This document shows positions 1,055 through 15,408 of a DNA stretch of 21,436 nucleotides, piece by piece. The position numbers and the translations under genes are program-made. The stretch comes from a virus. The notes under the pieces were generated by a model that saw nothing but the letters and a program-made list of their open reading frames with translations, made no database searches and was not told where the DNA came from. The stretch is taken from the IMG/VR virus record IMGVR_UViG_3300008120_005414, positions 1 through 21,436 of that record; one strand, 5' to 3'. Within the stretch, counting starts at the first letter, position 1; every line of letters starts with the position of its first letter.

Positions 1055-1690
1055 ATGGCGTTGATTCAAGTAGCACTCGATACTCTAGACTATGAACAAA
1101 CGATTCGTCTAGCTCAACGCATCTCACCCTATGTAGATATCATTGAACTCGGCACTCCGTGTGTTAAGTATAATGGTATTCGTATCGTCGAAACAGTTCA
1201 CATACTTATTCGAGACTGCCTAACTCTAGCAGATCTTAAGACAATGGACGCTGGGCTATATGAAGCCACACCATTCTACGAAGCTGGTGCTGATATCGTT
1301 ACCGTTCTTGGTGCTGCTGATGCTGGTACAATCAAAGGTGTAGTTGAAGCATCTAAGTCAACTAAAGCGCAAGCACAGGTTGATCTTATTAATGTAAAGA
1401 ATAAGCTAGAAACTGTTGCTCTTGCATATGAACTTGGTGCTCATATTATTGGCGTGCATACTGGACTAGATCAGCAGGCAAAAGGTCAGACGCCATTTGA
1501 AGATCTAAGGAAAGTTCAACAGATGAAAGTTGGTCTTAAGATCTCTGTTGCTGGTGGTATTAACAAGGATACCGTTCGTCAAGTTATTGATGCTGGTGCT
1601 GATATCGTTGTAGTAGGTGCAGCAATTTATGGTGCTACTGACCCCGTTCGCGCTGCTGCTGAAATTCGGGAAGCAGTTGAACGTGGCTAA
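1055..1690 (+). CDS. hxlA: 3-hexulose-6-phosphate synthase (HPS)
   Basis: The product is 211 residues, the usual HPS length. HPS condenses formaldehyde with ribulose 5-phosphate to give D-arabino-3-hexulose 6-phosphate, the first step of the ribulose monophosphate cycle. Seen: an orotidine-phosphate-decarboxylase-like barrel, with LADLKTMDAG carrying the D-x-K-x-x-D catalytic signature in its HPS form, then HTGLDQQAKG, and phosphate-binding VAGGIN and VVGAAIYGA strands near the C-terminus. DLKTMDAG and the HTGxDQQ segment favour HPS over the related decarboxylases KGPDC and UlaD. A GAGGAAA ribosome site lies at 1041-1047. The end overlaps hxlB by 8 bases, so the two are translationally coupled, as expected for a substrate-channelling pair. 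Confidence 0.92.
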   Translation: MALIQVALDTLDYEQTIRLAQRISPYVDIIELGTPCVKYNGIRIVETVHILIRDCLTLADLKTMDAGLYEATPFYEAGADIVTVLGAADAGTIKGVVEASKSTKAQAQVDLINVKNKLETVALAYELGAHIIGVHTGLDQQAKGQTPFEDLRKVQQMKVGLKISVAGGINKDTVRQVIDAGADIVVVGAAIYGATDPVRAAAEIREAVERG

Positions 1691-2249
1691 TTACTCTGAT
1701 GTTCTTGATATTCTAAGAGACGAACTGCTCTATACCGAAAAGGAAACATGTCAGCAACTTATTGATGTACTCATTCATACGATAAGTCGGAAAGAACATT
1801 ATAATGGCGGAAGAGTGTTTATTGCTGCTGCTGGTAGATCTAAGATGGTTGCCAATATGTTTGCGATGCGAATGATGCATTGTGGATTAAATGTGCAAGT
1901 AGTTGGAGAAACTACTACAACTCAGATAACGAGATTTGATTCGCTTCTTCTCGTTTCTGGTTCGGGTGAGACTAAGCAGTTGATCAATTTTGCTGAGAAG
2001 GCAAAGTCAGTTCGTTCAGAAGTATTGTTAGTAACAGCAAATCCAACTTCTACTCTTAGGAATATGGCTGATGAGGTTTTTCAGATTGGTCCATCAAATA
2101 GACTTCTATCTCCTGATAAGAATCTTCCTCTCGGTAGTAGGTTTGAACTCTCTACTATGATATTTTTTGAAACTGTTATTCTTAATTTCATGGAACAACT
2201 GAAGCTCACTGAAGACAATTTGAGAAACTGTCATACTAATTTGGAATAA
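1683..2249 (+). CDS. hxlB: 6-phospho-3-hexuloisomerase (PHI)
   Basis: PHI isomerises hexulose 6-phosphate to fructose 6-phosphate, the partner step to HPS. I chose the GTG at 1683: it overlaps the HPS stop, has GGGAAG nine bases upstream (1668-1673), and gives 188 residues starting MANYSDVL, the normal size. Starting at 1617 would bury the gene in hxlA. Seen: a SIS fold with the AAAGRSKMVANMFAMRMMHCG segment (family: GAGRSG..A.AFAMRLMHLG), VVGETTT, SGSGET for sugar-phosphate binding, and PLGSRFELSTMIF (family PLGTLFE). All key segments look intact. The stop lies directly ahead of the tmRNA, and a late-promoter-like box overlaps its last codons. Confidence 0.92.
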   Translation: MANYSDVLDILRDELLYTEKETCQQLIDVLIHTISRKEHYNGGRVFIAAAGRSKMVANMFAMRMMHCGLNVQVVGETTTTQITRFDSLLLVSGSGETKQLINFAEKAKSVRSEVLLVTANPTSTLRNMADEVFQIGPSNRLLSPDKNLPLGSRFELSTMIFFETVILNFMEQLKLTEDNLRNCHTNLE

Positions 2250-2252
2250 ATA
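2245..2252 (+). promoter_or_regulatory. candidate late promoter for the tmRNA (AATAAATA)
   Basis: AATAAATA overlaps the hxlB stop codon. It differs from the T4 late box TATAAATA in the first base only; that base is variable in marine T4-like phages. A start about 12-15 bases on would fall at the expected 5' end of the tmRNA acceptor piece. Confidence 0.4.
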
Positions 2253-2326
2253 GTATTGTTGGTATGGTCGTATGAAGTAAAGGGAAGGTATTCTGGACGC
2301 GGGTGCGAATCCCGCCACCTCCACCA

Positions 2327-2410
2327 AAAGCACACTCACCAACGCAAGGGGCGTTGGTCCCATTAAGGTTTTCTAGAGACTGGGATAGTTGCAACGAGTG
2401 TGCTTTTGAT
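2327..2410 (+). other. tmRNA intervening segment, removed on processing
   Basis: These 84 bases join the CCA end to the mature 5' end. AAAAGCACACTC (2326-2337) pairs perfectly over 12 bases with GAGTGTGCTTTT (2396-2407). Inside are hairpin ACCAACGC/GCGTTGGT (2338-2345, 2351-2358) and a weaker CCCA/TGGG pair (2359-2362, 2381-2384), giving a three-way junction stacked next to the acceptor stem. Processing at the CCA and at G2411 would free the two pieces. Confidence 0.8.
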
Positions 2411-2497
2411 GGGGGTGACTAGATTCGACAGGGTAAGATACTGATACAGACGACTCGGTAGGCGATGACCGTAAATCAAGCAAAAAATATAAATGTC

Positions 2498-2542
2498 GCA
2501 GCAAACGACGATCTATTTGAAGGTTACGCTCTAGCAGCTTAA
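2498..2542 (+). other. tmRNA tag reading frame (AANDDLFEGYALAA, stop)
   Basis: The resume codon is taken as GCA at 2498, directly after ATGTC, where E. coli and Caulobacter tmRNA have GTC-GCA. The frame reads A-A-N-D-D-L-F-E-G-Y-A-L-A-A and ends at TAA (2540-2542). The AAND start matches the alphaproteobacterial form, and the A-L-A-A end fits recognition by ClpXP. Confidence 0.9.
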
Positions 2543-2563
2543 TCTGTCATTAGCGGGGTGTTC

Positions 2564-2605
2564 GGTCCGTTGTCCTTGTTACTCAATCAACGGACCACCT
2601 AATTT
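2564..2605 (+). terminator. hairpin at the end of the tmRNA coding piece
   Basis: GGTCCGTTG (2564-2572) pairs perfectly with CAACGGACC (2588-2596) around a 15-base loop (TCCTTGTTACTCAAT). ACCTAATTTTT follows, so it may end the tmRNA precursor, although the T-run is set back a few bases. It may instead be the last helix of the mature RNA. The loop contains the stop codon of the HNH gene on the other strand. Confidence 0.55.
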
Positions 2606-3212
2606 TTGTTGACAATTTCGCGTTACAAGATCTACTACAACATTTTTGATTTGAAGGCGATTTGTGTACAAACTCTTGCTTTACAAAATTATTTTTGCAA
2701 ATTACGCAAACATATTCTCTATTGATCTTCGGTTTAGATTTGTGAATCACATTTAATGATTTTAAAAGCGTTGATTGTGTGCATTTTCTTTCTGGATTTT
2801 TAGACCAAGCCTCTTTCGCAGATTTTCCATCTTTATTTGGATTATTTGATTTGAATAATTCAGCGTGTTTCTGTCTAGCAGAAGAATACAATGAAGAATT
2901 TATTAAATAATTTCTTTGATGATTATCAGTTTGTTTTACCATCATTCTCATTAATGCATAATTCATTTGAAATTGTTTTCTTCCTTCAAACATCTTAGTA
3001 AGAAGTAAATGACAGATATAATGTTCTCTCGCGGTTAGCTTGACTATATTTTCTTGATCTTTTTCACCACCCAGTTTAAAACATTTAGGTAAAATATGGT
3101 GATTCTCACCATAACCATTTACATATTTTGAGTTTTGTATTATACTAATATACCATTTAGTATATTTGTTTGAAAGGGATAAAAATTGGATTTGTTGAAT
3201 ATAAATATTCAT
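2583..3212 (-). CDS. HNH homing endonuclease, free-standing
   Basis: This is a 209-residue protein and the only gene on the minus strand. Seen: an HNH core with GENHHILPKCFKLGG (His38, His39), ENIVKLTAREHYICHLLL (Asn55, His64, His68), and a C-terminal zinc-finger-like CVIC...CCSRSC region. HNH nucleases cut DNA with a divalent metal; free-standing ones in T4-like phages act as homing elements that spread to sister phages. The start at 3212 has AAGGAGT seven bases upstream. The gene ends inside the hairpin loop at the tmRNA end, so its transcript runs antisense into the tmRNA. It is clearly more AT-rich than its neighbours, which fits separate origin. No intron is apparent. Confidence 0.88.
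   Translation of the reverse strand: MNIYIQQIQFLSLSNKYTKWYISIIQNSKYVNGYGENHHILPKCFKLGGEKDQENIVKLTAREHYICHLLLTKMFEGRKQFQMNYALMRMMVKQTDNHQRNYLINSSLYSSARQKHAELFKSNNPNKDGKSAKEAWSKNPERKCTQSTLLKSLNVIHKSKPKINREYVCVICKNNFVKQEFVHKSPSNQKCCSRSCNAKLSTKIRWSVD
3200..3207 (+). promoter_or_regulatory. TATAAATA box pointing right
   Basis: This exact T4-type late box lies inside the first codons of the HNH gene but reads on the + strand, towards the gene at 3338. It would make a leader of about 125 bases containing the hairpins described for this region. It may be chance, since the element sits in a reading frame. Confidence 0.35.
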
Positions 3213-4032: not shown

Positions 4033-4854
4033 ATGGCTTCACAACAAGGATTTGAATACGAAAAAAATGCAGTTGCATATTTAAAAAACTATGGATTGTC
4101 TGATGGAATCCCTGCTGGCCCTAGCCATACACGCCCAGATTTAATGTTAACAGTTCATGGAAAAAAATCTGGTTGCGAATTAAAAATTAGCCCTACTGCA
4201 GGTGGAAGTCTAGTTTTAAAATATTATAGCAAAAAAACTCCGCATTGGCAGTTCGGAGAAGTTGATCATGACGAAACCGAAAAAATTTTTCTGAGTGAAC
4301 TAGCCACAAGATCTGGTGTACTGCAAACTGTAAATAGTACATGGAATATTCCTCCTTTCTTAATAGAAGACAGAGATGCAAATCACGAGCAAATAATGTT
4401 ACAAATTCCATTACGTCAAAGATATGAAGCAGATTTAAAAGCTTGCACAGACGTAAAGCTTCCTTTAGAATCAAGCGCAATGTCGAACTATTATAATATT
4501 AAAAACACATACTATATAAACGTTGGAACACACGGTTTTTTCTTATTGGGAAACAAAGATCCGTTAGGATTAAATGATAGTTTAAGAAAAAAAAATAAAT
4601 CAATAGTGCCCATATTTGAAAGTACAGCTAAGATTACTGCTAGAGTAAGATGTCAATCAAAAGGTGTAACAAAAGCTGATGCTGCAGAAAAGTCAAAAAG
4701 ACAAATAGGAACACAAGGTTATCAATTTACTTTCACTTTAGAATTTTCTCTTGCAACAAATGCATCTCCTTATAATATCGCACCATTAGCAAGTAATGGG
4801 AAATCAGTAACTATTCTTGCTAATAAAGAAGCTTTATTAGATTGTTTAAGGTAA
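4033..4854 (+). CDS. unknown protein with possible PD-(D/E)XK nuclease core
   Basis: The product is 273 residues. Near the N-terminus, RPDLMLTVHG followed by GCELKIS gives the P-D...E-x-K spacing of PD-(D/E)XK nucleases (about residues 34-53), preceded by a helix (GFEYEKNAVAYLKN) as in that fold. Such a protein would cut or bind DNA with a metal ion. The rest, including a Phe-rich TYYINVGTHGFFLLG stretch, matches nothing I know. Codon use is more A-rich, with frequent AAA and TTA, than the flanking genes. A virion or DNA-processing role is possible. The call rests on a short motif only. Confidence 0.55.
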   Translation: MASQQGFEYEKNAVAYLKNYGLSDGIPAGPSHTRPDLMLTVHGKKSGCELKISPTAGGSLVLKYYSKKTPHWQFGEVDHDETEKIFLSELATRSGVLQTVNSTWNIPPFLIEDRDANHEQIMLQIPLRQRYEADLKACTDVKLPLESSAMSNYYNIKNTYYINVGTHGFFLLGNKDPLGLNDSLRKKNKSIVPIFESTAKITARVRCQSKGVTKADAAEKSKRQIGTQGYQFTFTLEFSLATNASPYNIAPLASNGKSVTILANKEALLDCLR

Positions 4855-4861
4855 ATAATAT

Positions 4862-6031
4862 ATGAAATCATTTATAGAACTCGTAGAATCAGCAAACGAA
4901 GAGAAACTTACTCACTTAGAGCATGCCGAAGATCATCCAATCAATGCCGGTCATGAAGGAACTCAACACGCCATAAACACTCTTCGCCAAACTGCAAATG
5001 CTTTACAGAATAAGCCATCTAAAGCTAAGATCATGACTAAGTTCGATGGATCTCCATCTATAGTATTCGGTCATCATCCTGAAACTGGTAAGTTTTTCGT
5101 TGCTTCTAAGTCTGCTTTCAATAAGACTCCTAAATTAAACTATACTCCTGAAGATATTGAAAAGAATCATGGTCATGCTCCAGGATTAGTCTCTAAGTTA
5201 AAATCTGCATTAGAACATCTACCTAAAGCTGCTCCTAAATCCGGCGTGTATCAGGCAGATATCATGCATACGCCTGAAGATGTTAAGCATAGTAATGGCA
5301 AAGTTCACTTTAAACCAAACACCATTACATACTCTGCTTCAGGTAACTCTGCCGAAGGCGAAAAGGCAAAGCGTTCGCAAATAGGCATCGCGGTTCATAC
5401 AGCTTATCATGGTAAAACACTGGACTCGATGAAAGCTGAATATGGTGCGGATCTTTCTCATTTCAAAGAACATCCAGACGTTCATGTAATTCATACTCAC
5501 TTTAAACCAGAACACGCTTCATTTAGTGGTAAAGATACTAAAGAATTCAATAAGCATATTCAAGCCGCATCATCGATGGCTAAAAAAATAAAGCCAGAAC
5601 ATTATGGCGTATTGGATGATCATACGCATAAAGAACATCTTAAGACATACATCAATAGTACAGTAAGAAACAATACTGCTCCGTCTGTTGAAGGCTATAA
5701 AAAGCATCTCGAAGAACGCGGAGATAAAGAAGCTGGCAAAGTTAAGACGATGCTAGCACAAGATAGAAAGAAAAAGGTATACACAGATGCGGCTGAACAT
5801 GTTGAGCAAAATAAAGAGCATTTCGGTAACATATTATCATTGCATCATCATTTACAGAAAGCTAAGAACACTCTAGTTCATACCATGTCTCGTAAATCAG
5901 ATTTCGAACATCATATCGCCGGTCAAAAGACTAAACCAGAAGGTTTCGTTTCAGTCATAAATAATAGACCTACGAAGTTAACTGATAGATATGAATTTAA
6001 TAGAATGAATTTCTTAAAAACAAAGGAGTAA
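4862..6031 (+). CDS. ligase-fold nucleotidyltransferase-like protein with capsid-targeting-like leader
   Basis: The product is 389 residues. It starts MKSFIELVES, like the T4 internal-protein leader MKTYQEFIAE with the L-x-E end that the prohead protease gp21 recognises. Seen further on: TKFDGSPSIVFG (K60-x-D-G, motif I of covalent nucleotidyltransferases such as DNA and RNA ligases), and near the C-terminus PEGFV (Glu360-Gly361, motif IV-like) then RPTKLTDRYEF (Lys372, motif V-like). The middle is rich in His, Lys and charged residues. I recall homologues in marine T4-like phages as uncharacterised proteins. The motif order supports nucleotide transfer to a lysine, but the substrate is unknown and the match could be superficial. 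Confidence 0.55.
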   Translation: MKSFIELVESANEEKLTHLEHAEDHPINAGHEGTQHAINTLRQTANALQNKPSKAKIMTKFDGSPSIVFGHHPETGKFFVASKSAFNKTPKLNYTPEDIEKNHGHAPGLVSKLKSALEHLPKAAPKSGVYQADIMHTPEDVKHSNGKVHFKPNTITYSASGNSAEGEKAKRSQIGIAVHTAYHGKTLDSMKAEYGADLSHFKEHPDVHVIHTHFKPEHASFSGKDTKEFNKHIQAASSMAKKIKPEHYGVLDDHTHKEHLKTYINSTVRNNTAPSVEGYKKHLEERGDKEAGKVKTMLAQDRKKKVYTDAAEHVEQNKEHFGNILSLHHHLQKAKNTLVHTMSRKSDFEHHIAGQKTKPEGFVSVINNRPTKLTDRYEFNRMNFLKTKE

Positions 6032-6033
6032 TC

Positions 6034-6360
6034 ATGGAAAATCCCTCAAATCGATTTGGTAATCTTCTTCAAACGATGCAAGATAATCGTTGGAGAATCA
6101 CTCTAATTAATCTTGGAACTTTTGCAATGATTGTTATTGGCATTCTACTTGCAACAGTGCTACAGACACCAGTTGCATCAGAATGGAAAGAACTGCTCCT
6201 TCTAATGCTTGGCGCATTTATCGGCAACTATAATAAGACTGCAGAGTTCTGGTTTTCAAATGAAGATCGCGATAAGCTACTTGTTCAGAAGATGGATGAA
6301 GAAGATGATGCTCCCGGTACTGAAAAGGAACGTGTAGACCTAAACAAGACTAAAGAATAA
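6034..6360 (+). CDS. two-TM membrane protein, holin candidate
   Basis: The product is 108 residues. Two hydrophobic segments (about 23-44 ITLINLGTFAMIVIGILLATVL and 51-67 WKELLLLMLGAFIGNY) are separated by a short turn, and a long acidic C-terminal tail follows (KMDEEDDAPGTEKERVD). That is the layout of a class II holin, with both ends in the cytoplasm. Holins form the membrane lesion that times lysis. No sequence family match is certain, and other small membrane proteins look alike. An AAGGAG ribosome site lies at 6023-6028. A CATAAATA box at 5956-5963 could be a weak late promoter. Confidence 0.6.
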   Translation: MENPSNRFGNLLQTMQDNRWRITLINLGTFAMIVIGILLATVLQTPVASEWKELLLLMLGAFIGNYNKTAEFWFSNEDRDKLLVQKMDEEDDAPGTEKERVDLNKTKE

Positions 6361-6381
6361 TAATAAAGAGGACTTACTGAA

Positions 6382-6531
6382 ATGGCAAAACCTAAAGAAG
6401 TTTTTATATCACATCAAAATAATGTTTTTAAGAAATCGTCTACAAGCGGTAAGTCCTCTATGGTCAAGCGATCATCAATGAATAAGAAACGAAAAGCCTC
6501 ATATAAAGCGTATAGAGGCCAGGGAAGATAA
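6382..6531 (+). CDS. small basic protein, 49 residues
   Basis: The frame reads MAKPKEVFIS, continues with a Ser/Lys-rich core (FKKSSTSGKSSMVKRSSMNKK) and ends YKAYRGQGR. I recall similar short basic proteins before structural genes in T4-like marine phages, with unknown role. A ribosome site AAAGAGG lies at 6365-6371. The strong positive charge suggests RNA or DNA binding. Confidence 0.8.
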   Translation: MAKPKEVFISHQNNVFKKSSTSGKSSMVKRSSMNKKRKASYKAYRGQGR

Positions 6532-6555
6532 TATACAATTGTGTTTGGTATATTA
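6529..6555 (+). other. hairpin between 6382 and 6578 genes
   Basis: TAATATAC (6529-6536) and GTATATTA (6548-6555) form a perfect eight-base stem with an 11-base loop, starting in the stop codon of the upstream gene. There is no T-run, so this is not a standard terminator. It could be an mRNA processing or stabilising element ahead of the virion gene. Confidence 0.55.
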
Positions 6556-6577
6556 AACTTTTGAAAGGTCAACAATA

Positions 6578-7885
6578 ATGGCACAGTTTAGAACAGATTT
6601 AAAAATATTAGATGGACCTCATAATCGTACACGATATGAAGTGATGATGTTAAATGATAGATTAACTACATCTGGTTCTTTAACGGATGCATTTGGTCGT
6701 CTTCGCACATCAACTCCATTTACTCTATTTGACAGTCAACATCGTTATAAAGAAAATGATAAGTTTGATACATTAATCGTAGGAGCTACGGCTAATAGTC
6801 AATATAAAATAAATGAATCTGCAATTAATTTAAACGTTGGCACTTCATCTGGCGATAAAGTAGTACGCGAATCTAAAAGAGTATTTGCATATCAACCCGG
6901 AAAATCTCTGCTTATTATGAATACGTTTGTGATGAATGAACCGAAAGCTCAAGTGCGTCAAAGAGTAGGATATTTTGGTAACAATAACGGTATATATTTA
7001 GAGGCAAATGGCGTTAACATTTCATTAGTTAAAAGAAGTTATTCTAGTGGAACTATAGAAGAAACAGTAATTCCTCAGTCATCTTGGAATATAGATAAAT
7101 TTGACGGAAAAGGTTTTTCTGGACAAATGGCCCTTGCGAATAATCACGGACAAGGATTATTTGTAAATAAATCTAATTTATTTTGGATAGACATGGAATG
7201 GTTAGGTGTAGGAGATGTTAGATGTGGATTTTTAGTAGATGGCGGACTATATCCAGCTCATGTCTTTCATCACGATAACGTGGCTAATACTGCATACATA
7301 ACAACCGCAGTACTACCCATTCGTTATGAAATAGAAAATTTAGATACGACTATCTCTTCATCTACCTTAAAACAGATATGCTCTACCGTTATTTCAGAAG
7401 GAGGATATCAGGGTAGAAACAAAGCTAGATCACAGACTATAAATTTAAATGATTTTAAAACTCTTACCACGGCTAATACTTATTATCCGGTAATGAGTAT
7501 AAGATTAAGTCCTGATAGACCCGACGCAGTAGTTCTTCCGAAAAATTTTGATTTAGGTGTCATAACTAATCAAACTACTACTTTACATTATAAAATATTA
7601 ATCAACGCTAATTTATCTAATACGTCATTTGCCAATTGTCAGGGAAATACAGTGCAATTTGATATAAGTGCTAATTCAACGGTTTCAGAAGGCACATTAA
7701 TCAAATCGGGTTATATTAGTACTAGTCAAAAAGGTGCGGCGATAGATATAGGATCTATAGACGAGTTCGAAATACAACTAGGAAGAACTATAAGCGGCAA
7801 TAGTGATGTTTTTTCTTTAATTGTAGCAAGTGAAGCTGGTGGTGTTAAAGTTGGTGCTACATTAGAATGGTTTGAATTAATATAA
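6578..7885 (+). CDS. virion structural protein, marine T4-like type
   Basis: The product is 435 residues. Seen: a start with DAFGRLRTSTPFTLFDSQHRY, a middle VGYFGNNNGIYLEANGVNISLVKRS, and FWIDMEWLGVGDVRCGF then LPIRYEIENL. I recall this combination from virion proteins of cyanophages and other marine myoviruses, where it is usually labelled structural protein. The C-terminal part (SGYISTSQKGAAIDIG...) is beta-rich. No enzyme motif is seen. AAAGG precedes the ATG by eight bases. It is likely exposed on the particle, possibly in tail or neck, but its exact position cannot be told. Confidence 0.75.
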   Translation: MAQFRTDLKILDGPHNRTRYEVMMLNDRLTTSGSLTDAFGRLRTSTPFTLFDSQHRYKENDKFDTLIVGATANSQYKINESAINLNVGTSSGDKVVRESKRVFAYQPGKSLLIMNTFVMNEPKAQVRQRVGYFGNNNGIYLEANGVNISLVKRSYSSGTIEETVIPQSSWNIDKFDGKGFSGQMALANNHGQGLFVNKSNLFWIDMEWLGVGDVRCGFLVDGGLYPAHVFHHDNVANTAYITTAVLPIRYEIENLDTTISSSTLKQICSTVISEGGYQGRNKARSQTINLNDFKTLTTANTYYPVMSIRLSPDRPDAVVLPKNFDLGVITNQTTTLHYKILINANLSNTSFANCQGNTVQFDISANSTVSEGTLIKSGYISTSQKGAAIDIGSIDEFEIQLGRTISGNSDVFSLIVASEAGGVKVGATLEWFELI

Positions 7886-7888
7886 ATA
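7881..7888 (+). promoter_or_regulatory. late promoter TATAAATA
   Basis: An exact T4 late box overlaps the stop codon of the 6578 gene, 29 bases ahead of the ATG at 7918. This is the same geometry as at 3997-4004. Confidence 0.6.
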
Positions 7889-7917
7889 GCTAAATAAGTA
7901 ATTTTAGGCCCAATTAA

Positions 7918-8973
7918 ATGCTTAAATTTTTAGACTACGTAACGGAAGAAAAAGAGCGTCATGCTGTAGTGGCATTTGGGCGCATGAATCCTCCTACGAC
8001 TGGTCATGAAGCGCTTGTCAATAAAGTCAAAGAACATGCTGCACATGTAGGCGGAGACGCTCATGTCTATCTTTCACATTCTCAAGACGCTAAGAAGAAT
8101 CCATTATCATATGAACACAAAGCATCATATGCGCAAAAGGCATTTGGAGATACAATAAAGAAATCTCCTGCTAAGAATCCTTTAGAAACTCTTAAAGATC
8201 TTCATAAACAAGGTTATCATCATGTAACTATGGTTGCTGGTAGTGACAGAGTAGATGAATATAAGAATCTATTACATAAGTATAATGGTCATCCAGATCA
8301 TTATAACTTTAAGTCCATACATGTAGTTTCTGCCGGAGAAAGAGATCCTGATTCAGAAGGCGTTTCTGGTATGAGTGCTTCTAAGATGAGAGAGCATGCT
8401 AAGAACAGCAATCATGAAGGGTTCAAATCTGGATTACCAGATAGTTTAAAAAAGCACAGTAAAGAAATCATGCATCATGTTCGAACTGGCATGAATATCA
8501 GCGAAGCTAAAGACACTACTACAATTGTATATGCTCGAGTACCTCCTAAGCCTCTTCAAAAGGGACCAATTCAACGACAAAATGCTTCTGGTGTTTTAGA
8601 ATATCTAAAGCAACTCGTCGTAGGTATAAAAAATAAAAATGCAGCTATGGTCAATAAGCCAAATAGAAAAGTCAATGATAAGATCGTTGGCATGTATGCA
8701 GGCGATACAAATAAGAATGGTAAAGCACTAACAGAATCATATGAAAGCTTTAATGTCGTTAAAGCTGCTGGTTATGGAGCCATCTTAACAGCTGCAGATA
8801 TGGGCATTAAGATCAAAGGTGGGTTTGCCCATCATCCATCAGTAGAAAAAGAGTTGATGGAAAGAATGGGATGTGGATGTGACGAAAAGGATTGCGAACA
8901 CGAGTTGGAATATAAACTACAAAAGAAACGTAACTTAAGAAGAAAACAATTTAAACTTGGAGATGAGTCATGA
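7918..8973 (+). CDS. NMNAT/cytidylyltransferase-type nucleotidyltransferase with leader
   Basis: The product is 351 residues. Residues 1-14 (MLKFLDYVTEEKER) resemble a capsid-targeting leader. A Rossmann nucleotidyltransferase domain follows: GRMNPPTTGH (21-30, the T-x-G-H form of the HxGH motif) and SASKMR (153-158, the ISSTxxR-type motif). Enzymes of this kind transfer a nucleotide to a phosphate, as in NAD or CDP-glycerol synthesis. Residues about 195-351 form another domain with TESYESFNVVKAAGYGAILTA and a Cys cluster CGCDEKDCEH that might bind metal. Homologues are common in marine T4-like phages, with unproven substrate. It overlaps the next gene as ATGA. Confidence 0.75.
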   Translation: MLKFLDYVTEEKERHAVVAFGRMNPPTTGHEALVNKVKEHAAHVGGDAHVYLSHSQDAKKNPLSYEHKASYAQKAFGDTIKKSPAKNPLETLKDLHKQGYHHVTMVAGSDRVDEYKNLLHKYNGHPDHYNFKSIHVVSAGERDPDSEGVSGMSASKMREHAKNSNHEGFKSGLPDSLKKHSKEIMHHVRTGMNISEAKDTTTIVYARVPPKPLQKGPIQRQNASGVLEYLKQLVVGIKNKNAAMVNKPNRKVNDKIVGMYAGDTNKNGKALTESYESFNVVKAAGYGAILTAADMGIKIKGGFAHHPSVEKELMERMGCGCDEKDCEHELEYKLQKKRNLRRKQFKLGDES

Positions 8974-9251
8974 TTAAGAGTCTTTTAGCTAAAGTACGAA
9001 AGTTATTTGAAACTACAACTGAAGAAGTCGCTGTGATTACTACACAAGTAGAGCAAAAAGTAGAAGAACTTAAAGTTGAAGTAGCTGCAGTCGTTGAAGA
9101 AGTTAAAGTTGAAGTTCAACCTATCGTTGAAGCTGTAGTTCAAGAAGTAAAAGAAGTTGTTGAAGTAGTCAAAACTCCAGTTCAAAAGCTTAGTAAAGCT
9201 AAGGTTGAAAAGAAGCCACGTAAACCCAAATCTGCTAAGGTACAAAAATGA
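8970..9251 (+). CDS. Glu/Val-rich helical protein with basic tail
   Basis: The product is 93 residues. Residues 14-68 are built almost wholly of Glu, Val, Lys and Ala in a repeating EEVKVEV pattern, likely a long amphipathic helix or coiled coil. The C-terminus (KAKVEKKPRKPKSAKVQK) is a Lys/Pro/Ala tail like those of histone H1-like proteins. No family is recognised. It could bind DNA, or associate with a membrane or head shell. It overlaps both neighbours by four bases (ATGA), so it is translated with them. Confidence 0.7.
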   Translation: MIKSLLAKVRKLFETTTEEVAVITTQVEQKVEELKVEVAAVVEEVKVEVQPIVEAVVQEVKEVVEVVKTPVQKLSKAKVEKKPRKPKSAKVQK

Positions 9252-9895
9252 GTAAGAAGGATAAAAAAGAATATGATTATGAAGGTGATATGGCAATGTC
9301 ACAGCTTCGTAGCATCATACGTAATGCGCAATATATGCATGATAAGCTTTTAACTCCTACTACAAATCTTCCTGAATGGGTACAATCAAAGATTACATTA
9401 GCTGAAGATTACATTTCTACTGCAGTAAATTATATGAGTAGCGAAATTGATGAAAGTTATATTGAAGAATCTGCGAACAAAGGTTTAGCTGCTAAAGCAA
9501 AAGCTTCTGGTGTATCATTGTCTACATTGAGAACGGTTTATAAAAGAGGCGTAGCTGCATGGAATTCTGGTCATCGTCCAGGTACAACTCCTCAGCAATG
9601 GGGAATGGCCAGAGTTAACTCATATATTACCAAAGGTAAAGGCACATATCATGGTGCCGATAAAGATCTTCGTGAAGCTGATTCCCGATTAAATAAAGAA
9701 CCATATCAAAGAGGATTGAGTTCCTCTACTATCGCAGCTAGAGTTAGACATTGGCAAAAAGCAGATAAACTTTCTGATAGAGATCCAAAGGCATATGAAC
9801 CAGCTCCAGGCGATGCAACTGCTAAAACGAAACTAAGTAAACACACTGTGAAATATCGTAAAATGTATGGTAAAGGAGCAAAGGAAGAATCATGA
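9248..9895 (+). CDS. modular phage protein with DUF5824-like domain
   Basis: The product is 215 residues. Module 1 (about 13-63): EGDMAMSQLRSIIRN...LPEWVQSKITLAEDYI, a helical segment I recall in several marine T4-like proteins. Then an acidic linker SSEIDESYIEES with I-D-E. Module 2 (about 80-135): GVSLSTLRTVYKRGVAAWNSGHRPGTTPQQWGMARVNSYI, which I believe is DUF5824. Module 3: a basic C-terminus with WQKADKLSDRDPKAYEPAPGDATAKTK. Its function is unknown. Head-internal location is an inference from the linker and neighbours. ATGA overlaps occur at both ends. Confidence 0.7.
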   Translation: MSKKDKKEYDYEGDMAMSQLRSIIRNAQYMHDKLLTPTTNLPEWVQSKITLAEDYISTAVNYMSSEIDESYIEESANKGLAAKAKASGVSLSTLRTVYKRGVAAWNSGHRPGTTPQQWGMARVNSYITKGKGTYHGADKDLREADSRLNKEPYQRGLSSSTIAARVRHWQKADKLSDRDPKAYEPAPGDATAKTKLSKHTVKYRKMYGKGAKEES

Positions 9896-10263
9896 GAGCA
9901 CTCGCTATACTAGCATTAACGATGTCCTTAAGTGGATGTCTTTCTTTATCACTACTTCCACGAGATCACGATCCAGTTCTTGCTGGTGCATATGTTGATA
10001 CTCGGCTCGAGATAAATAATCTAAAGTGTGAGGCACGTGGTGAATCTTTTGTTCAAGTCAGTTGGGCATCTGCATTGTACCACAGTAAGTTTATGAAAGA
10101 ATATACTGCTTTTAGAAAAGATCCTCAGGCTGAAAATGCAGAAGGCATATCAGTTAATCTTCAAAAAGCTTTAGACGCTAAGAATGAAAAGATGTGTAAT
10201 CATTGGTTAAAATTAACGGGTTCTAGAATGTCAGCTTTAGAAACAGCTTGGAGAGGTCGATAA
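9892..10263 (+). CDS. lipoprotein of unknown function
   Basis: The product is 123 residues. The N-terminus MRALAILALTMSLSGC is a lipoprotein signal with lipobox L-S-G-C (Cys16), so the mature protein would be lipid-anchored in the host envelope. The mature part is helical, with two further cysteines and an EARGESFVQVSWASALYHSKF segment. No family is recognised. Possible roles are superinfection exclusion or lysis. It is joined to its neighbours by ATGA and TAATG overlaps. Confidence 0.75.
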   Translation: MRALAILALTMSLSGCLSLSLLPRDHDPVLAGAYVDTRLEINNLKCEARGESFVQVSWASALYHSKFMKEYTAFRKDPQAENAEGISVNLQKALDAKNEKMCNHWLKLTGSRMSALETAWRGR

Positions 10264-10502
10264 TGGACGAACTTATCAAAGAAATCTTATCGCATAAAGA
10301 TGACGATTCTGCACTTGGTGAACTTGCTGCAGAACTTCATAATATCATTGAAGATCATAAAGCCGGAGATATTTCAGACGAAGATCTAAATGATCTTTTG
10401 ATTGAAACTATTCAGGTTTATAAAGCCCATGAAACAGCGCATAATGAAGTCATGATTAGATGGGCGGTTAAACTAGCTCAGCTTGCAGCAAAGGCAGTCT
10501 AA
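10263..10502 (+). CDS. small acidic protein
   Basis: The product is 79 residues. The start at 10263 (MDELIKEILS) forms a TAATG with the preceding stop and has GAGAGG ten bases upstream; an earlier in-frame ATG at 10248 is less likely. It is mostly helical and acidic (HKDDDSALGELAAELHNIIEDH, SDEDLNDLL). No family is recognised. It is coupled to the Dps gene by TAATG. Confidence 0.7.
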   Translation: MDELIKEILSHKDDDSALGELAAELHNIIEDHKAGDISDEDLNDLLIETIQVYKAHETAHNEVMIRWAVKLAQLAAKAV

Positions 10503-10939
10503 TGACTCTTATTGATTCTATTAAAATGGTTTTGGCAAATAATTTTGCTCTATATCTAAAAGCGCATTATTTTCATTGGAATGTTGAAGGTCCAGATTTT
10601 GCTCAATTTCATGATTTTTTTGAAAATCTTTATACCGAAATTTATAGCTCAATAGATCATTTTGCAGAAGAGATAAGAGCGTTGGATGCATATGCTCCCG
10701 GATCTTTTGAGCGTTATGTAGAACTTTCTCAAATCAAGGGCGAAGAGAGACTTTTAACTTCTCTAGAAATGTTAAGACAATTACAAGTTGATAATCAAAC
10801 TATGATTGCTTCTTTACAACAAGCATATAAATTAGCAGAAGCTTCAGTTGAACTCGGTCTTTCTAATTTCATTCAAGATAGAATAGATCAACACAAAAAA
10901 CACGCTTGGATGATCAGATCATTCCTTAAAGGACGATAA
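10502..10939 (+). CDS. dps: Dps-family ferritin-like protein
   Basis: The product is 145 residues. Dps proteins form 12-subunit shells that oxidise and store iron and shield DNA from hydroxyl radicals. Seen: LKAHYFHWNVEGPDFAQFHDFFE and then IDHFAEEIRALD, which carry the inter-subunit ferroxidase residues His25, His37, Glu41, Asp52 and Glu56 in the spacing of E. coli Dps (His51, His63, Asp67, Asp78, Glu82). The C-terminal IDQHKKHAWMIRSFLKG matches the last Dps helix. There is no long Lys-rich N-terminal tail, so direct DNA binding is uncertain. It sits among late genes and could be made late or packaged; that is inference. Confidence 0.88.
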   Translation: MTLIDSIKMVLANNFALYLKAHYFHWNVEGPDFAQFHDFFENLYTEIYSSIDHFAEEIRALDAYAPGSFERYVELSQIKGEERLLTSLEMLRQLQVDNQTMIASLQQAYKLAEASVELGLSNFIQDRIDQHKKHAWMIRSFLKGR

Positions 10940-11556
10940 TGAACGAGTATAAAAACTTAGAAAGTACTATCAAAGATTTTGTTAGTAGAGTTCCTATGCT
11001 CGATAAAACTGATTACAGATATAGTCGTATATGCAATACAATAAGAAGCGTTTATGAACAAAGAGATAAGCGACTTGAAAAAGATCAAAATGATCAAGTT
11101 GCTGTAGGTTCATACATGACTAAGTATTTTGAAGTAAGTCCTAAAGCTCAGATCCTATATGACAATCTTCCAAAGGGTACTAATCCTACTGCAGCTGAGA
11201 ACTCTGCGATTGCCCATGATCGCCTTTTTGCCCTTGAAAAAGAAGTTCTAGCAAAGAACATAGCTAATCCAGAAGACGTAAAACGCGCTGAAGAGCTGCG
11301 TGATCGTATTATGTCATTTGCTAAAGATATGAATCTTGAGAAAGAGCACGAATATATAAATAAAAACTTAGATACGATTAAAAGTTTCGTGAAAGATGAT
11401 TCTAAAGACAGTGTTGAAGATCAAATAGCTCATAGATTCGCCAGTCCTCCTGCTCGCCGGACTCCAGAGCCTAAAGATACTGATATAGATTCATCGAAGT
11501 TTCTTATTCGTAGAGATTTAAAAGCACAACGTAAACTTAAAATAATAGATGACTAG
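10939..11556 (+). CDS. unknown charged protein, likely late
   Basis: The product is 205 residues, helical and highly charged (KKxx, EKEVLAKN, EELRDRIMSF), with a Pro/Arg-rich stretch SPPARRTPEPKDTDID and a basic C-terminus DLKAQRKLKIID. It has no membrane segment or known motif. The N-terminus is coupled to dps by TAATG. A scaffold, head-internal or tail-associated role is possible but unproven. Confidence 0.65.
   Translation: MNEYKNLESTIKDFVSRVPMLDKTDYRYSRICNTIRSVYEQRDKRLEKDQNDQVAVGSYMTKYFEVSPKAQILYDNLPKGTNPTAAENSAIAHDRLFALEKEVLAKNIANPEDVKRAEELRDRIMSFAKDMNLEKEHEYINKNLDTIKSFVKDDSKDSVEDQIAHRFASPPARRTPEPKDTDIDSSKFLIRRDLKAQRKLKIIDD
11355..11362 (+). promoter_or_regulatory. internal TATAAATA box
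   Basis: This exact late box lies inside the 10939 gene (codons for E-Y-I-N-K), 204 bases before the 11566 start. It could add late transcription of the large repeat protein, or be a chance result of the AT-rich codons. Confidence 0.35.
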
Positions 11557-11565
11557 GGGACTTAT

Positions 11566-13209
11566 ATGTCTAACTTAAAAAATACTTATGGCTTTTCATC
11601 CAGCCTTTTAGATGCAATTCGTAGCGTTCATGAAACTTCTAATCAAGATGTTGAACAAATCGATGAAATTTCAAAAAACGCAAAAAAACGGTATATGGGC
11701 TCAGCGGTCGCTGATCTTACCAGTCGTGCTTATGACCATGGAGTTCATACTGCCGGACCTTACAACCGAACCAATAAAGATATCGCTGACGCTAAACGTA
11801 AGATAAAAAATCGTCAAGTTGGCATTTATCGTGCGACTCAAGAAGAAGTCGAACTTGATGAAGCAGTTCCTTATACACTTGGCGGTAGACCCGATAAGTC
11901 TAATGTCTATAAAGTGCATAGACAAGATTGGAAAGGCAATTGGTCACATAATCCTGGAGACACATATCATTCTTTGGATGACGCAAAAACTGTTGCTAAA
12001 AATATGAAAAAAGGTGCTAGTAGCACTGTAAAAACAAAGATAACTAAACACGCAAGAACAAAATTGGCTGGCCCTAAAGGTGTACTACCAGAAGAAGTTG
12101 AACTTGATGAAGGTGGAATGCCTAGTTCAGTTATTCGGTCAAAACAAAAATATGCTGCCATGACCAATCAAGAATTTGCTGATCTACATGGACATAAACC
12201 TGAAGAGCAATTAAGACAAATGGCTTGGTCACATGGTTATGGCAAAATGAGTCCACATTATTGGAATCGAGTTCAAAAAGCTAAAGCAGCTCAAATGAAA
12301 GAAGAAGTTGATCTTGATGAAGCCGATCAGATTGATGAAATTTCAAACAAAGCAAAAGCAAAATATTTAGGTAGAGCGGTTGGCGATTTAACACTTCGCT
12401 CTCAAGAACACGGTTTCCATACAGGCGCCAACTTTTATGGTAAACGCACGCATCCACCACATGATTACGCAGATGCTAAGCGGAAAATAAAAAATCGTCA
12501 AGTTGGCATTTATCATGCAACAAAAAACATTGCTAAGGAAGAAGTTGATCTTGATGAAGCCGATCATACCTATCCATTTAAAGCTAATCAGTTAGCTCCA
12601 TTAGTCGTTCAGCTTCGGGCACTTCTTAACTTCCTATCTAAGTCTGGTTCTCTTAAAAAGTCTATGCGAGAGCACGCAGAACTAGTTGAAGCATACATCG
12701 GCGAAGAGATTACAGAAGAGCGGCTAGAAGAAATGATTTCCTTTATCGATGATCTAATGGAAGGTCGTCCAAAGGGTTCAAAGAATAAGTCAAAGATGGC
12801 TTCCGCTCCTAAGCCAGAAGCCCGCAGTGAAAGAGGCGAAGCCTCATCATCAGAAGAAGATGATGATTATGAAGACGCACACCCAACAGCCAGTCGTGAT
12901 GGTCGCCACATTATTCCAGAATTAAATGGTGCCGCTGGTGATAAAAAAGGTGATACTGTTCAGACATCTGGTGGTCAGCGTCACGTACCTCAACACGTTG
13001 CAACAAAGATGGTATCTCATCTTATGTCGCTAAAACCAGCTGAGCGCGCTGAGCATTCTGCTCATATCTTTAATGGTTCAGTACCAAAAGTCAAAACATT
13101 GAATCATGTAAAGACTAATGTACTAATTAAGCAGATGGGTTCTGAAAAGAAAATTGGCTCTGACGCTGGTGTAAAGCGCGGCCGCGGTCGTCCTAAAAAG
13201 GCAGTCTAA
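11566..13209 (+). CDS. large modular repeat protein with candidate prohead-protease sites and AT-hooks
   Basis: The product is 547 residues. Modules of about 70-80 residues are divided by acidic linkers ending I-D-E or L-D-E: sites at 32-34, 97-99, 180-182, 250-252, 256-258 and 329-331. Modules 35-99 and 259-331 are repeats of each other (ISxxAKxxYxGxAVxDLT...DAKRKIKNRQVGIY). The C-terminal half has a helical part (332-398), an AT-hook-like EGRPKGSKNK (399-408), an acidic Ser/Asp/Glu stretch, and a final KRGRGRPKKAV, a classic AT-hook core. T4 gp21 cuts after [L/I]-x-E, so this may be a head polyprotein processed into DNA-binding peptides. That is inference. A GGGG ribosome site lies at 11557-11560. 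Confidence 0.72.
   Translation: MSNLKNTYGFSSSLLDAIRSVHETSNQDVEQIDEISKNAKKRYMGSAVADLTSRAYDHGVHTAGPYNRTNKDIADAKRKIKNRQVGIYRATQEEVELDEAVPYTLGGRPDKSNVYKVHRQDWKGNWSHNPGDTYHSLDDAKTVAKNMKKGASSTVKTKITKHARTKLAGPKGVLPEEVELDEGGMPSSVIRSKQKYAAMTNQEFADLHGHKPEEQLRQMAWSHGYGKMSPHYWNRVQKAKAAQMKEEVDLDEADQIDEISNKAKAKYLGRAVGDLTLRSQEHGFHTGANFYGKRTHPPHDYADAKRKIKNRQVGIYHATKNIAKEEVDLDEADHTYPFKANQLAPLVVQLRALLNFLSKSGSLKKSMREHAELVEAYIGEEITEERLEEMISFIDDLMEGRPKGSKNKSKMASAPKPEARSERGEASSSEEDDDYEDAHPTASRDGRHIIPELNGAAGDKKGDTVQTSGGQRHVPQHVATKMVSHLMSLKPAERAEHSAHIFNGSVPKVKTLNHVKTNVLIKQMGSEKKIGSDAGVKRGRGRPKKAV
11656..11862 (+). repeat. coding repeat, copy 1
   Basis: Residues 31-99 of the 11566 protein. A 27-base stretch at 11803-11829 (codons for IKNRQVGIY) is identical to 12487-12513 in copy 2. 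Confidence 0.85.
12328..12558 (+). repeat. coding repeat, copy 2
   Basis: Residues 255-331, homologous to copy 1 with a few extra residues before the DYADAKRKIKNRQVGIY segment. The linkers at 12301-12329 and 12540-12568 (EEVDLDEAD) share 29 identical bases, indicating recent duplication or gene conversion. Confidence 0.85.
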
Positions 13210-13210
13210 T

Positions 13211-13423
13211 ATGCCTATTTTTGGCAATATAATAGTACAAAATGACGTCTCTACTGCTGCAATAAGTAGAGACGTTAGTGAAGTTAAGACATTTGATGAG
13301 TTACGACAATTAGCTGTAGCAGTTAATGATATAAAAGTTGCCAAAGAAACTAGAACAGAAAATAAAATAAATAGTAAGAAAACTTCTAGATATTTAGAAG
13401 ATCTTACGAATAAAGGAGACTAA
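13211..13423 (+). CDS. small unknown protein
   Basis: The product is 70 residues (MPIFGNIIVQ...), starting one base after the previous stop. It is helical and basic in its second half (KETRTENKINSKKTSRYLEDL). No family is recognised. It is probably a linker gene in the structural operon. Confidence 0.65.
   Translation: MPIFGNIIVQNDVSTAAISRDVSEVKTFDELRQLAVAVNDIKVAKETRTENKINSKKTSRYLEDLTNKGD
13366..13373 (+). promoter_or_regulatory. candidate late promoter AATAAATA
   Basis: A near-exact late box lies 52 bases ahead of the virion gene at 13425, inside the end of the 13211 gene. Confidence 0.35.
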
Positions 13424-13424
13424 A

Positions 13425-14237
13425 ATGGCACAATGGGGTAATGTCGATAACGCGGCTAATTCATGCCTATGGGCAGTAGCTGGATTTAATAAAACTGCTA
13501 ATTCAACAAATCAAACAGCATTTTTTGGTAATACAACTGCAGATGCGTATATAACTGGCGAAACAGTTGGCCTGTTTGGTGCAGATGCTACAGAAACTAC
13601 AGTAGCAAATGGTTCGCTACTTTCATTTACTGTAACATTTACTGGTTCAGGTTATCTTGCTAATACTACTGTCACCGTAACTGGTAATGGTACAGCTAAT
13701 GCTACTGCTAACTCTACGGGCAGAATTAGTTCAGTTAATGTTGTTGCTAATGGTAGCAACTATACTAGTAAACCAACAGTTACTATTGCTGCGCCTACTG
13801 CCGTAACATTTAATGGTAATACAGCTGTATCAAGCACAAATAAGTTTATTACGCTAGCTTCAAATCCATTTCTTGTCGGTGATGCAATTACGTATTCAGT
13901 AACGGCAGGTAATACGGTTGTATCTCCTCTTACAAATAATGCAGTGTTTTTCGTATCTTTGTCAAATTCCAGTGGTATACAGCTTACAAGTAACTTAGGT
14001 AATACTACTCCAATTTCTTTGATACCAACTACAGTATCTGAAACTGGTCAAAAACTTACTGGTCAAACCGCAACTGCTGAAGCAGTATTAACAAGCGTAC
14101 GTAATAATTATCACGCTGGTTGGGTAGTTCGTACAGTTGGATCAGGCGGCCGCGCTGGTCGTGTGCAGTACGAAACTCTAGTAGCTATGGGTTCAATGAC
14201 TGGTGACGCTGAAGACGATATTCTAAAGGATTTATAA
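13425..14237 (+). CDS. beta-rich virion structural protein
   Basis: The product is 270 residues, rich in Thr, Asn, Ala, Gly and Val. Starts with MAQWGNVDNAANSCLWAVAG; repetitive beta segments follow (TVTFTGSGYLANTTVTVTGNG, then TGRISSVNVVANGSNYTSKP), and it ends with VRTVGSGGRAGRVQYETLVAMGSMTGDAEDD. I recall this start and end from structural proteins of marine T4-like phages. The repetitive middle resembles fibre or decoration proteins. AAAGGAG precedes the start by six bases. It has no enzyme motif. Confidence 0.75.
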   Translation: MAQWGNVDNAANSCLWAVAGFNKTANSTNQTAFFGNTTADAYITGETVGLFGADATETTVANGSLLSFTVTFTGSGYLANTTVTVTGNGTANATANSTGRISSVNVVANGSNYTSKPTVTIAAPTAVTFNGNTAVSSTNKFITLASNPFLVGDAITYSVTAGNTVVSPLTNNAVFFVSLSNSSGIQLTSNLGNTTPISLIPTTVSETGQKLTGQTATAEAVLTSVRNNYHAGWVVRTVGSGGRAGRVQYETLVAMGSMTGDAEDDILKDL

Positions 14238-14241
14238 TTAA

Positions 14242-14526
14242 ATGTCTGATCGTGCTAAAAAGATAAGTGAATTAACTGCGCTTACATCAGCCTCGGAGGA
14301 CGATCTATTAGTAATAGTAGACGCTCCTTCGGGAACTGCTGCTACCAAAAAAATTACAGTCGGTAATCTATTTGGTAATTCGCAGGCAAATGTCGTAATC
14401 TATGGTGCAACTCCAGCAAATAGTACGATTACTATTAAACAGGGTACATTGTTATATAGCAACAGTTATCTTTATATAGCTGTTGCTAACAATGTAGTAA
14501 AGAGGGTGGCTCTAGAGTCATTCTAA
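14242..14526 (+). CDS. small virion or fibre-associated protein
   Basis: The product is 94 residues. The N-terminus KKISELTALTSASEDDLLVIVD...ATKKITVGNLFGN is a segment common at the start of phage tail-fibre and structural proteins (K-I-S-E-L-x-A-L...D-D-L). Here it stands as a short protein with a beta-rich C-terminus (TITIKQGTLLYSNSYLYIAVANN). It may be a trimmed fibre adaptor. It follows the 13425 gene by four bases. Confidence 0.7.
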   Translation: MSDRAKKISELTALTSASEDDLLVIVDAPSGTAATKKITVGNLFGNSQANVVIYGATPANSTITIKQGTLLYSNSYLYIAVANNVVKRVALESF

Positions 14527-14530
14527 ATTA

Positions 14531-14867
14531 ATGAAATGTGAAACCTTGGATAATAGTAATTTTTTATTATATGCAGCTAAACATTATGATAATCCACAAT
14601 GTTTTGATACTAAAGAATTTTATGACGATCTGAAAAGGTTTAAGATTGATTATCAATCATCTTCAAGTTCTTTACAATTTATTTGGTATAGAACCTACTA
14701 CGCGTATGCTGTTCTTGTCTTTAAAACACCATCATGAGTGTTTAAAACCATTCCTAATACTATTCAATACTATGCCAGAATGTATATTTAACGTTGAAGG
14801 TCGAGATATACTAAACAGCGATATAAGTATGGATAATCAAATAGTAGAAGTACTAAGGAAAATCTAA
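14531..14867 (+). pseudogene. broken gene of a conserved T4-like marine phage protein
   Basis: Two overlapping frames give one protein family. The first, from 14531, reads MKCETLDNSNFLLYAAKHYD...FYDDLKRFK and then goes off into unrelated sequence, ending at 14737. The second, open from 14646 in another frame, reads IINHLQVLYNLFGIEPTTRML...LFNTMPE...VEVLRKI and ends at 14867. From memory, intact relatives join these parts through roughly 20 residues (RLFNRY..GELKERL-like). So about 60 bases seem lost with a frame change near 14643, exactly at an inverted repeat GATTGAT-T-ATCAATC (14644-14658). A sequencing error or programmed shift would not explain the missing middle. Confidence 0.6.
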
Positions 14868-15142
14868 TGAAAACATTTATGCAATTTATCACTGAACGAG
14901 GTGAAGATTCTAAGGGATACTATCGTTCAACTGAGAGTGGTGCAGGTCTTACTAGAAAGGGCGCTAAACACTTCGGCATTCAAACTGCAGTAACCGGAAA
15001 GGTTAAACCTGGATCAAAAGCGGCTAAACGTCGTAAATCGTTTTGTGCGCGCATGTCTGGGATGCGTGGTCCTATGAAAGATGAAAAAGGTCGTCCAACA
15101 CGAAAAGCTATGTCTCTTAGAAGATGGAGATGCAGAACATGA
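14867..15142 (+). CDS. small basic protein (DUF6321-like) with capsid-targeting-like leader
   Basis: The product is 91 residues. The leader MKTFMQFITE closely matches the T4 internal-protein leader MKTYQEFIAE, including the I-x-E end. The rest is very basic: GLTRKGAKHFGIQTAVTGKV, KPGSKAAKRRKSFCARMSGM, then DEKGRPTRKAMSLRRWRC. I believe this is the domain called DUF6321, of unknown role. The charge suggests DNA contact inside the head. The start forms TAATG with the preceding stop. Confidence 0.75.
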   Translation: MKTFMQFITERGEDSKGYYRSTESGAGLTRKGAKHFGIQTAVTGKVKPGSKAAKRRKSFCARMSGMRGPMKDEKGRPTRKAMSLRRWRCRT

Positions 15143-15408
15143 TATCCTTCAAACAATTTTCAGAAGCTTGTTGGGATGGTTATAAAAAAATTGGTATGAA
15201 GAAAAAGGGCAATAAAATGGTGCCTAACTGTGTACCCGTAGGCGAAGATATTACCGCAATTCCAGCTAATAATGCTGGATCTGGTAATGTAAAGGGATTT
15301 GATCCTGTGTTAGGTCAACCTATGACTAAAAGAATAAAACCTGTTGGAAAAATGATTGATGCAATGACGAATCCAAAAAAGAAGACTAAAATCGACACAC
15401 GAGTGTAG
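15139..15408 (+). CDS. small protein with capsid-targeting-like leader
   Basis: The product is 89 residues. I chose the ATG at 15139 over 15124: it overlaps the preceding stop (ATGA) and has GGAG nine bases upstream. It begins the leader MISFKQFSEA (F-x-E end). The body, CWDGYKKIGMKKKGNKMVPNC, is a short basic motif seen beside DUF6321-like proteins in marine phages, as I recall. The C-terminus is Lys/Pro rich. Function unknown. Confidence 0.7.
   Translation: MISFKQFSEACWDGYKKIGMKKKGNKMVPNCVPVGEDITAIPANNAGSGNVKGFDPVLGQPMTKRIKPVGKMIDAMTNPKKKTKIDTRV

Follow-up and report, generated by a model that had tools for sequence, protein, structure and literature searches.

Leaders resembling the capsid-targeting sequence of T4 on four proteins of a T4-like phage, two of them predicted nucleotidyltransferases

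Introduction

The closest described system is the capsid-targeting sequence (CTS) of the T4 proteins IPI-III and Alt. According to the accessible text of PMC9026906, residues 4 and 7 of the T4 leader control targeting and residues 8 and 10 control processing, the cleavage motif of the prohead protease gp21 is L/I-x-E, and the propeptide of gp23 comprises 65 residues. Here, we analyze a 21,436-base virus record of a T4-like phage from water (IMG/VR record IMGVR_UViG_3300008120_005414; this whole stretch is called the window), and compare it with related loci, which carry L-numbers. Four genes of the window encode proteins that start with a CTS-like leader. Little was found on what T4-like phages beyond the coliphages carry in their heads. 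A literature search, mostly without subscription papers, returned none that describes a CTS in proteins of cyanophages or marine phages; the review PMC9026906 contains both "capsid targeting" and "cyanophage", the latter once.

Results

All four open reading frames (ORFs) named in an earlier note on this DNA are present on the + strand with the N-termini given there: MKSFIELVES at 4862 (DUF6267 protein), MLKFLDYVTE at 7918 (adenylyltransferase), MKTFMQFITE at 14867 (DUF6321 protein) and MISFKQFSEA at 15139 (CWDGYK-module protein). For the last, an alternative open start exists at 15124, 15 bases upstream. All four leaders have a hydrophobic or aromatic residue at positions 4 and 7. The leader glutamate is residue 9 in the 4862 and 15139 proteins and residue 10 in the 7918 and 14867 proteins. 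Three leaders end in [L/I/F]-x-E, as had been noted; LVE and ITE also fit the strict L/I-x-E, but FSE fits the wider pattern only. The VTE of the 7918 protein fits neither form, and its 92%-identical relative in L164 has LIE (MLKFLDYLIE).

The earlier proposal of a shared leader is borne out, as the four leaders exceed chance. In the window, the relaxed pattern occurs in 3 of 37 called genes where 0.3 are expected (p = 0.0023), with a gene caller that took a different start for 7918. After removal of redundancy, the proteins of 80 related loci and the window comprise 549 first ATGs and 1708 internal ATGs. The strict T4-derived pattern matches 17 of the former and 1 of the latter (p = 4e-10), the relaxed pattern 30 and 21. 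A control pattern in which Ser replaces Glu is also somewhat enriched (14/549 vs 13/1708, p = 0.0017), so part of the relaxed-pattern signal is a general hydrophobic bias. At least one leader-bearing member is found in 22 of 293 protein families. Because the sequences are related, these leader counts are not independent events. Of the seven genomes scanned as a whole with the relaxed pattern, four do not reach significance (HTVC008M, p = 0.85; Syn9, 0.09; G001, 0.47; G003, 0.90); the simple gene caller used for this misses real starts. The leaders are concentrated in the gene block studied here compared to the rest of the genome, with 3/22 vs 2/210 genes in Melnitz, 3/11 vs 2/260 in Syn9 and 3/12 vs 2/234 in S-SM1. 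A distant leader, MMKFTQFLAES, is found in Stenotrophomonas phage DLP6, whose DUF6267 protein is 29.5% identical. In Melnitz, the DUF6267 leader reads MINFSKYITE.

The conservation of the leader is seen best in DUF6267, for which we aligned 23 divergent copies, the one in the window and 22 from IMG/VR. Phe4 and the glutamate at position 9 or 10 are invariant in all 23, and each leader ends in [L/I]-x-E, for which 11 different tripeptides occur. Among the 504 Glu residues in the bodies of these proteins, just 19 have L or I two residues before them. The stretch from the leader glutamate to the conserved KLxHLEH differs in length and letters. In the AlphaFold model, the leader is predicted to be disordered, with a predicted local distance difference test (pLDDT) score below 50 for residues 1-12 and a whole-model mean of 88.5.

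Of 14 records, comprising relatives and controls with T4 as the positive control, 10 encode a gp21-type peptidase; the remaining four are contigs of 36 to 90 kb. In T4 and six related phages, all seven major capsid proteins have [LI]xE at the position of the T4 gp23 cut. The octamer TATAAATA, the T4 late promoter element, lies at most 70 bases upstream of 9 of 30 leader genes and of 39 of 518 other genes across the relatives (p = 5e-4). In the window by itself, the element is no more frequent than expected by chance; the excess is seen only in the comparison across relatives.

For one tagged protein, there is published virion detection. According to the accessible text of PMC3037559, Sullivan et al. 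2010 detected T4-GC190, a putative citidylyltransferase, by its peptides in purified virions of cyanophage S-SM1. GenBank lists T4-GC190 as SSM1_190; it is the counterpart of the 7918 protein and starts MKKFSAFLNEAE. Its counterparts start MKKFSAFLSEAE in Syn9 and MKSFFQFLSEAQ in S-SM2. The DUF6267 protein of S-SM1, which is leaderless, is not named among the newly detected virion proteins in the accessible text of PMC3037559.

The position of the tag varies across the relatives. The adenylyltransferase carries it at the front in the window, L164, the L005 group, L169, Melnitz, S-SM1, S-SM2 and Syn9, and is fused behind a leader-bearing DUF6267 in L049, L050, L053 and L067. In other relatives, the tag directly follows the catalytic domain, either at the extreme C-terminus, as in L062 (...MSFSKFLVEENNVVVSS) and L078 (...LSFGAFLNEQRSSI), with one residue more in L056, or at the joint to further sequence, as in L055, L069, L072 and L080. 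No tag was found on the adenylyltransferases of L001-L003, HTVC008M, several cyanophages and others. Among 30 complete distinct adenylyltransferases, a front tag or a DUF6267 fusion is present in 8, and 7 of the other 22 have a rear or joint tag; shuffled sequences give a mean of 0.19, and none of 2000 shuffles reaches 7. In L055, L057, L069 and L077, DUF6321 follows the adenylyltransferase in one fused protein, and the entire leader including its Met is kept at the joint in 4/4 distinct fusions. Over 14 distinct contexts, the leader stands directly before DUF6321 in 9; L011, L018 and L019 show a partial leader match about 157 residues upstream, and L050 and L067 show none. The earlier note had called the bodies unrelated. 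They do belong to four distinct families, but bodies 1 and 2 as well as bodies 2 and 3 are fused in relatives. Judged from these sequences, the tag is portable: it precedes unrelated bodies, and relatives carry it at either terminus or where two fused domains meet. Tagged fusions would presumably be split again inside the head.

A conserved cut site before the CWDGYK module in all architectures was considered as well and rejected. Within three residues, [LI]xE is found in 4 and [LIFVM]xE in 6 of 20 distinct matches, some of which are clearly not the module.

DUF6267 relatives occur in 467 of 50,697 phage records, mostly cyanophages. By sequence, the protein of the window matches only DUF6267 in Pfam, and a PDB sequence search gave no match. 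Its model shows the adenylation-domain fold of the ligase superfamily with motifs I (KxDG), IV (EGxV) and V (K), and K60, D62, G63, E360, G361 and K372 (KxDG at 60-63, EG at 360-361) are invariant in the 23 copies. All 50 PDB chains listed by VIA-align are ligases, led by Naegleria RNA ligase with a Z of 9.8 over 183 residues, and including T. brucei REL1 (8.3), T4 Rnl2 (8.3), fungal Trl1 (8.2) and T4 Rnl1 (7.1). Foldseek alone is weak, with a DNA ligase as best match (E 0.012). The predicted fold leads us to read DUF6267 as a ligase-like covalent nucleotidyltransferase that has an additional helical region.

The best family match of the 7918 protein, phrog_3041, is named "cytidyltransferase". 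Pfam CTP_transf_like scores 18.9 bits, below its cut-off of 21, and a PDB sequence search gave no match. The predicted fold is of Rossmann type, and the GRxNPPTxGH motif with its invariant residues is present, as in NMNAT, NadD and PPAT. Structural comparison gives a root-mean-square deviation of 3.0 over 152 residues to PPAT, and Foldseek finds NadD with E 2e-6. On this model, "cytidyltransferase" is a mere label and the predicted fold is that of NMNAT/PPAT. The literature search gave no mention of "DUF6267" or "cytitidyltransferase". By predicted fold, the earlier note was right in counting two nucleotidyltransferase-like enzymes among the four proteins.

Further enzymes join this set in the relatives. 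The adenylyltransferase runs on into a zeta/AAA_33-like P-loop kinase in L058, L066, L165 and L169, with scores near or below the Pfam cut-offs, and phrog_455 spans DUF6267, the adenylyltransferase and part of the kinase stretch. Melnitz encodes a separate kinase with the leader MKTFAELQEG. Directly upstream of DUF6267, L066 and L079 encode leader-bearing proteins that match the polynucleotide-kinase family phrog_415 (PNK-type phosphatase).

In annotated phages, the same genes are placed after gp41 and ahead of ribonucleotide reductase and a primase of the gp61 type. The genes that follow in the window are a primase-like ORF, ThyX and NrdA; other features of the window are listed in Table 1. 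The gene directly before DUF6267 varies strongly across the loci. Judged by eye, it is PD-(D/E)xK-nuclease-like in the window and in several other loci, and elsewhere HAD or glycosyltransferase-like. The CWDGYK module gives phrog matches only as pieces of larger proteins without known function. A hypothetical T4 protein that adjoins gene 61, gp61.1 (L175, AF158101 18966-19130), starts with the CTS-like MKTFKEFIKED; the block studied here also adjoins gp61.

Table 1. Features of the 21,436-base window.
Feature	Positions	Strand	Evidence
HxlA, 3-hexulose-6-phosphate synthase	1055-1690	+	236 bits, cut-off 200
HxlB, 6-phospho-3-hexuloisomerase	1617-2249	+	162.5 bits, cut-off 160
Permuted two-piece transfer-messenger RNA (tmRNA)	2227-2633	+	129 bits to tmRNA_permuted; ARAGORN tag VAANDDLFEGYALAA
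Homing-endonuclease-like gene	2583-3212	-	phrog_655 E 2e-34
PD-(D/E)xK-nuclease-like gene	4033-4854	+	
Leader MKSFIELVE of DUF6267 protein, ends L-V-E	4862-4888	+	F4/E conservation; pLDDT <50 over residues 1-12
Body: DUF6267, predicted fold of an RNA-ligase-like covalent nucleotidyltransferase, residues 60-63 KxDG	4889-6031	+	PF19782 E 2e-100
TATAAATA, T4-type late promoter element, 30 bases before the 7918 start	7881-7888	+	motif match
Leader MLKFLDYVTE of adenylyltransferase	7918-7947	+	ORF; relative L164 MLKFLDYLIE
Body: predicted NMNAT/PPAT-fold adenylyltransferase (residues ~12-196), low-confidence C-terminal part	7948-8973	+	phrog_3041 E 9e-71; Z 14.4 to PPAT
Dps-like DNA-protection protein, same gene block	10502-10939	+	phrog_3636 E 1e-32; DpsA models below cut-off
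Candidate additional internal protein with repeated modules parted by EEV[ED]LDE and QIDE, in the form of [LI]xE sites	11566-13209	+	suggestive repeats
Leader MKTFMQFITE of DUF6321 protein	14867-14896	+	ORF; same leader at fusion joints
Body: DUF6321, small, very basic, net +19 in 81 residues	14897-15142	+	PF19846 E 8e-16
Leader MISFKQFSE of CWDGYK-module protein	15139-15165	+	ORF
Body: small basic protein with the CWDGYKKxGxKKKG module, net charge +10 over 80 residues	15166-15408	+	phrog_9737, 727, others
Small protein, hydrophobic start, weak thermonuclease likeness	20447-20884	+	scores below cut-offs

The 547-residue protein at 11566 is perhaps a polyprotein of internal peptides, for which its repeats are suggestive only; tblastn of this protein against the phage records gave no match. 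At the start of the window, HxlA and HxlB are formaldehyde-fixing ribulose monophosphate genes on a phage fragment and suggest a methylotrophic host. A literature search in partly accessible texts returned no report of phage-borne HxlA or HxlB. The homing-endonuclease-like gene overlaps the tmRNA end on the opposite strand. A two-piece tmRNA is also present in methylophage Melnitz.

Discussion

We consider it quite probable that the leaders act as capsid-targeting propeptides in the manner of T4: targeting the protein, being cut off, and leaving a body that is kept with the DNA and probably enters the host. This is in line with the earlier note, and what speaks for capsid targeting are the invariant residues, the [L/I]-x-E ends, the predicted disorder, the late promoters, the gp21-type protease in relatives and the virion mass spectrometry of one orthologue. 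The proteins would be made late, and the tag of Phe4 and an aromatic residue 7 would draw each of them into the prohead core. A gp21-type prohead protease would then cut behind [L/I]-x-E within the head, and the folded body thus released would remain with the DNA and probably enter the next host cell. The individual steps differ in strength. Capsid targeting of the leader proteins is well supported. Removal of the leader by the protease is likely, as far as can be read from the cleavage motif. For DUF6267, DUF6321 and the CWDGYK-module protein, we infer packaging, published virion detection being that of the 7918 orthologue only. Injection into the host, taken alone, could equally well be true or false. 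Taken together, the data suggest that the virions of these phages contain nucleotide-joining enzymes, perhaps for delivery with the DNA.

Several observations weigh against capsid targeting. Two of the four window leaders, with FSE and VTE, miss the strict L/I-x-E. Neither a front, a fused nor a rear tag is present in 15 of the 30 complete adenylyltransferases, among them that of L001, a locus whose DUF6267 shares 69% identity with that of the window. DUF6267 is leaderless in S-SM1, Syn9, P-HM1, S-8S53, S-CAM1, S-MbCM7 and AG-345-P14. The HTVC008M block shows no enrichment (1/22 vs 0/185), with degenerate leaders only. In addition, no gp21-type protease was found in the 21 kb window; the phage's own protease is not visible there because the window holds no head genes.

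Targeting and cutting would also apply to scaffold-core or assembly factors like T4 gp67, gp68 and IPIII, which do not serve delivery. For T4, the accessible text of PMC9026906 describes that IPIII influences head shape and that gp21 cuts core proteins. Two of the four bodies studied here are small and basic like T4 internal proteins, and injection is a step that we infer. Conserved catalytic motifs in two predicted nucleotide-chemistry enzymes are unexpected for a scaffold, though, and we regard such a role as unlikely. The tagged genes are located between the replication genes gp41 and gp61, outside the head operon, which would fit a leader that serves as docking peptide for another partner, e.g. 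the surrounding replication machinery, with a likeness to the T4 CTS that is coincidental or arose via gene duplication. This we hold to be very improbable. Docking leaves unexplained the strict [LI]xE end, which matches the head protease, as well as the detection of the tagged orthologue T4-GC190 in virions (accessible text of PMC3037559), and the T4 protein adjoining gene 61, gp61.1, itself carries such a start. We conclude that capsid targeting is the preferred reading.

As far as the sequences tell, the composition of the cargo is reminiscent of RNA end-healing and sealing or, alternatively, of NadR-like NAD (nicotinamide adenine dinucleotide) synthesis, which combines a kinase with NMNAT. 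On the basis of this composition, a kit can be envisaged that consists of the RNA-ligase-like DUF6267, the adenylyltransferase fused to a P-loop kinase and the PNK-type HAD phosphatase. Ocean and lake T4-like phages would load it via a tag at the N-terminus, C-terminus or joint, and the kit, delivered with the DNA, would mend host tRNA, or other RNA, that defence nucleases have cleaved, ahead of any phage gene expression. We think this rather doubtful. Beyond that, a readable tag would allow prediction of head-packed proteins from sequence and would flag enzymes available at infection time zero. If the tag also works at the C-terminus and at fusion joints, this would broaden the T4 rule, and such a tag could serve to load foreign proteins into heads.

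Among the known enzymes, the ATP-dependent RNA ligases (Naegleria RNA ligase, T4 Rnl1/Rnl2, fungal Trl1) share with DUF6267 the predicted fold, KxDG, EGxV and a motif-V-like lysine. DUF6267 differs from them by a helical insert at about residues 220-345 and by matching nothing in Pfam beyond its own family, and its activity is a prediction. The 7918 protein is similar to NMNAT, NadD and PPAT in predicted fold and in the conserved GRxNPPTxGH, whereas the phage adenylyltransferases have phage-specific C-terminal parts and form, in relatives, fusions with DUF6267, with DUF6321 or with a P-loop kinase.

Head propeptides of the giant phages SPN3US and phiKZ are likewise removed after Glu by a related protease, but with the motif A-x-E (S/A/G-x-E in phiKZ) and with most propeptides longer than 100 residues (accessible text of PMC5694885). 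The likeness to T4 IPI-III and Alt is closer. Both systems have leaders of about ten residues with aromatic residues at positions 4 and 7 and Glu at 9 or 10 after [L/I]-x, placed before unrelated bodies, and a gp21-type protease and late promoters are also found in the related phages. Among the proteins considered here, published packaging concerns a single orthologue, that of the adenylyltransferase. New compared to the T4 CTS system are the cargo (ligase-like protein, adenylyltransferase and DUF6321), the phage groups, and the tag at both protein ends, which relatives carry at the C-terminus and at domain joints as well.

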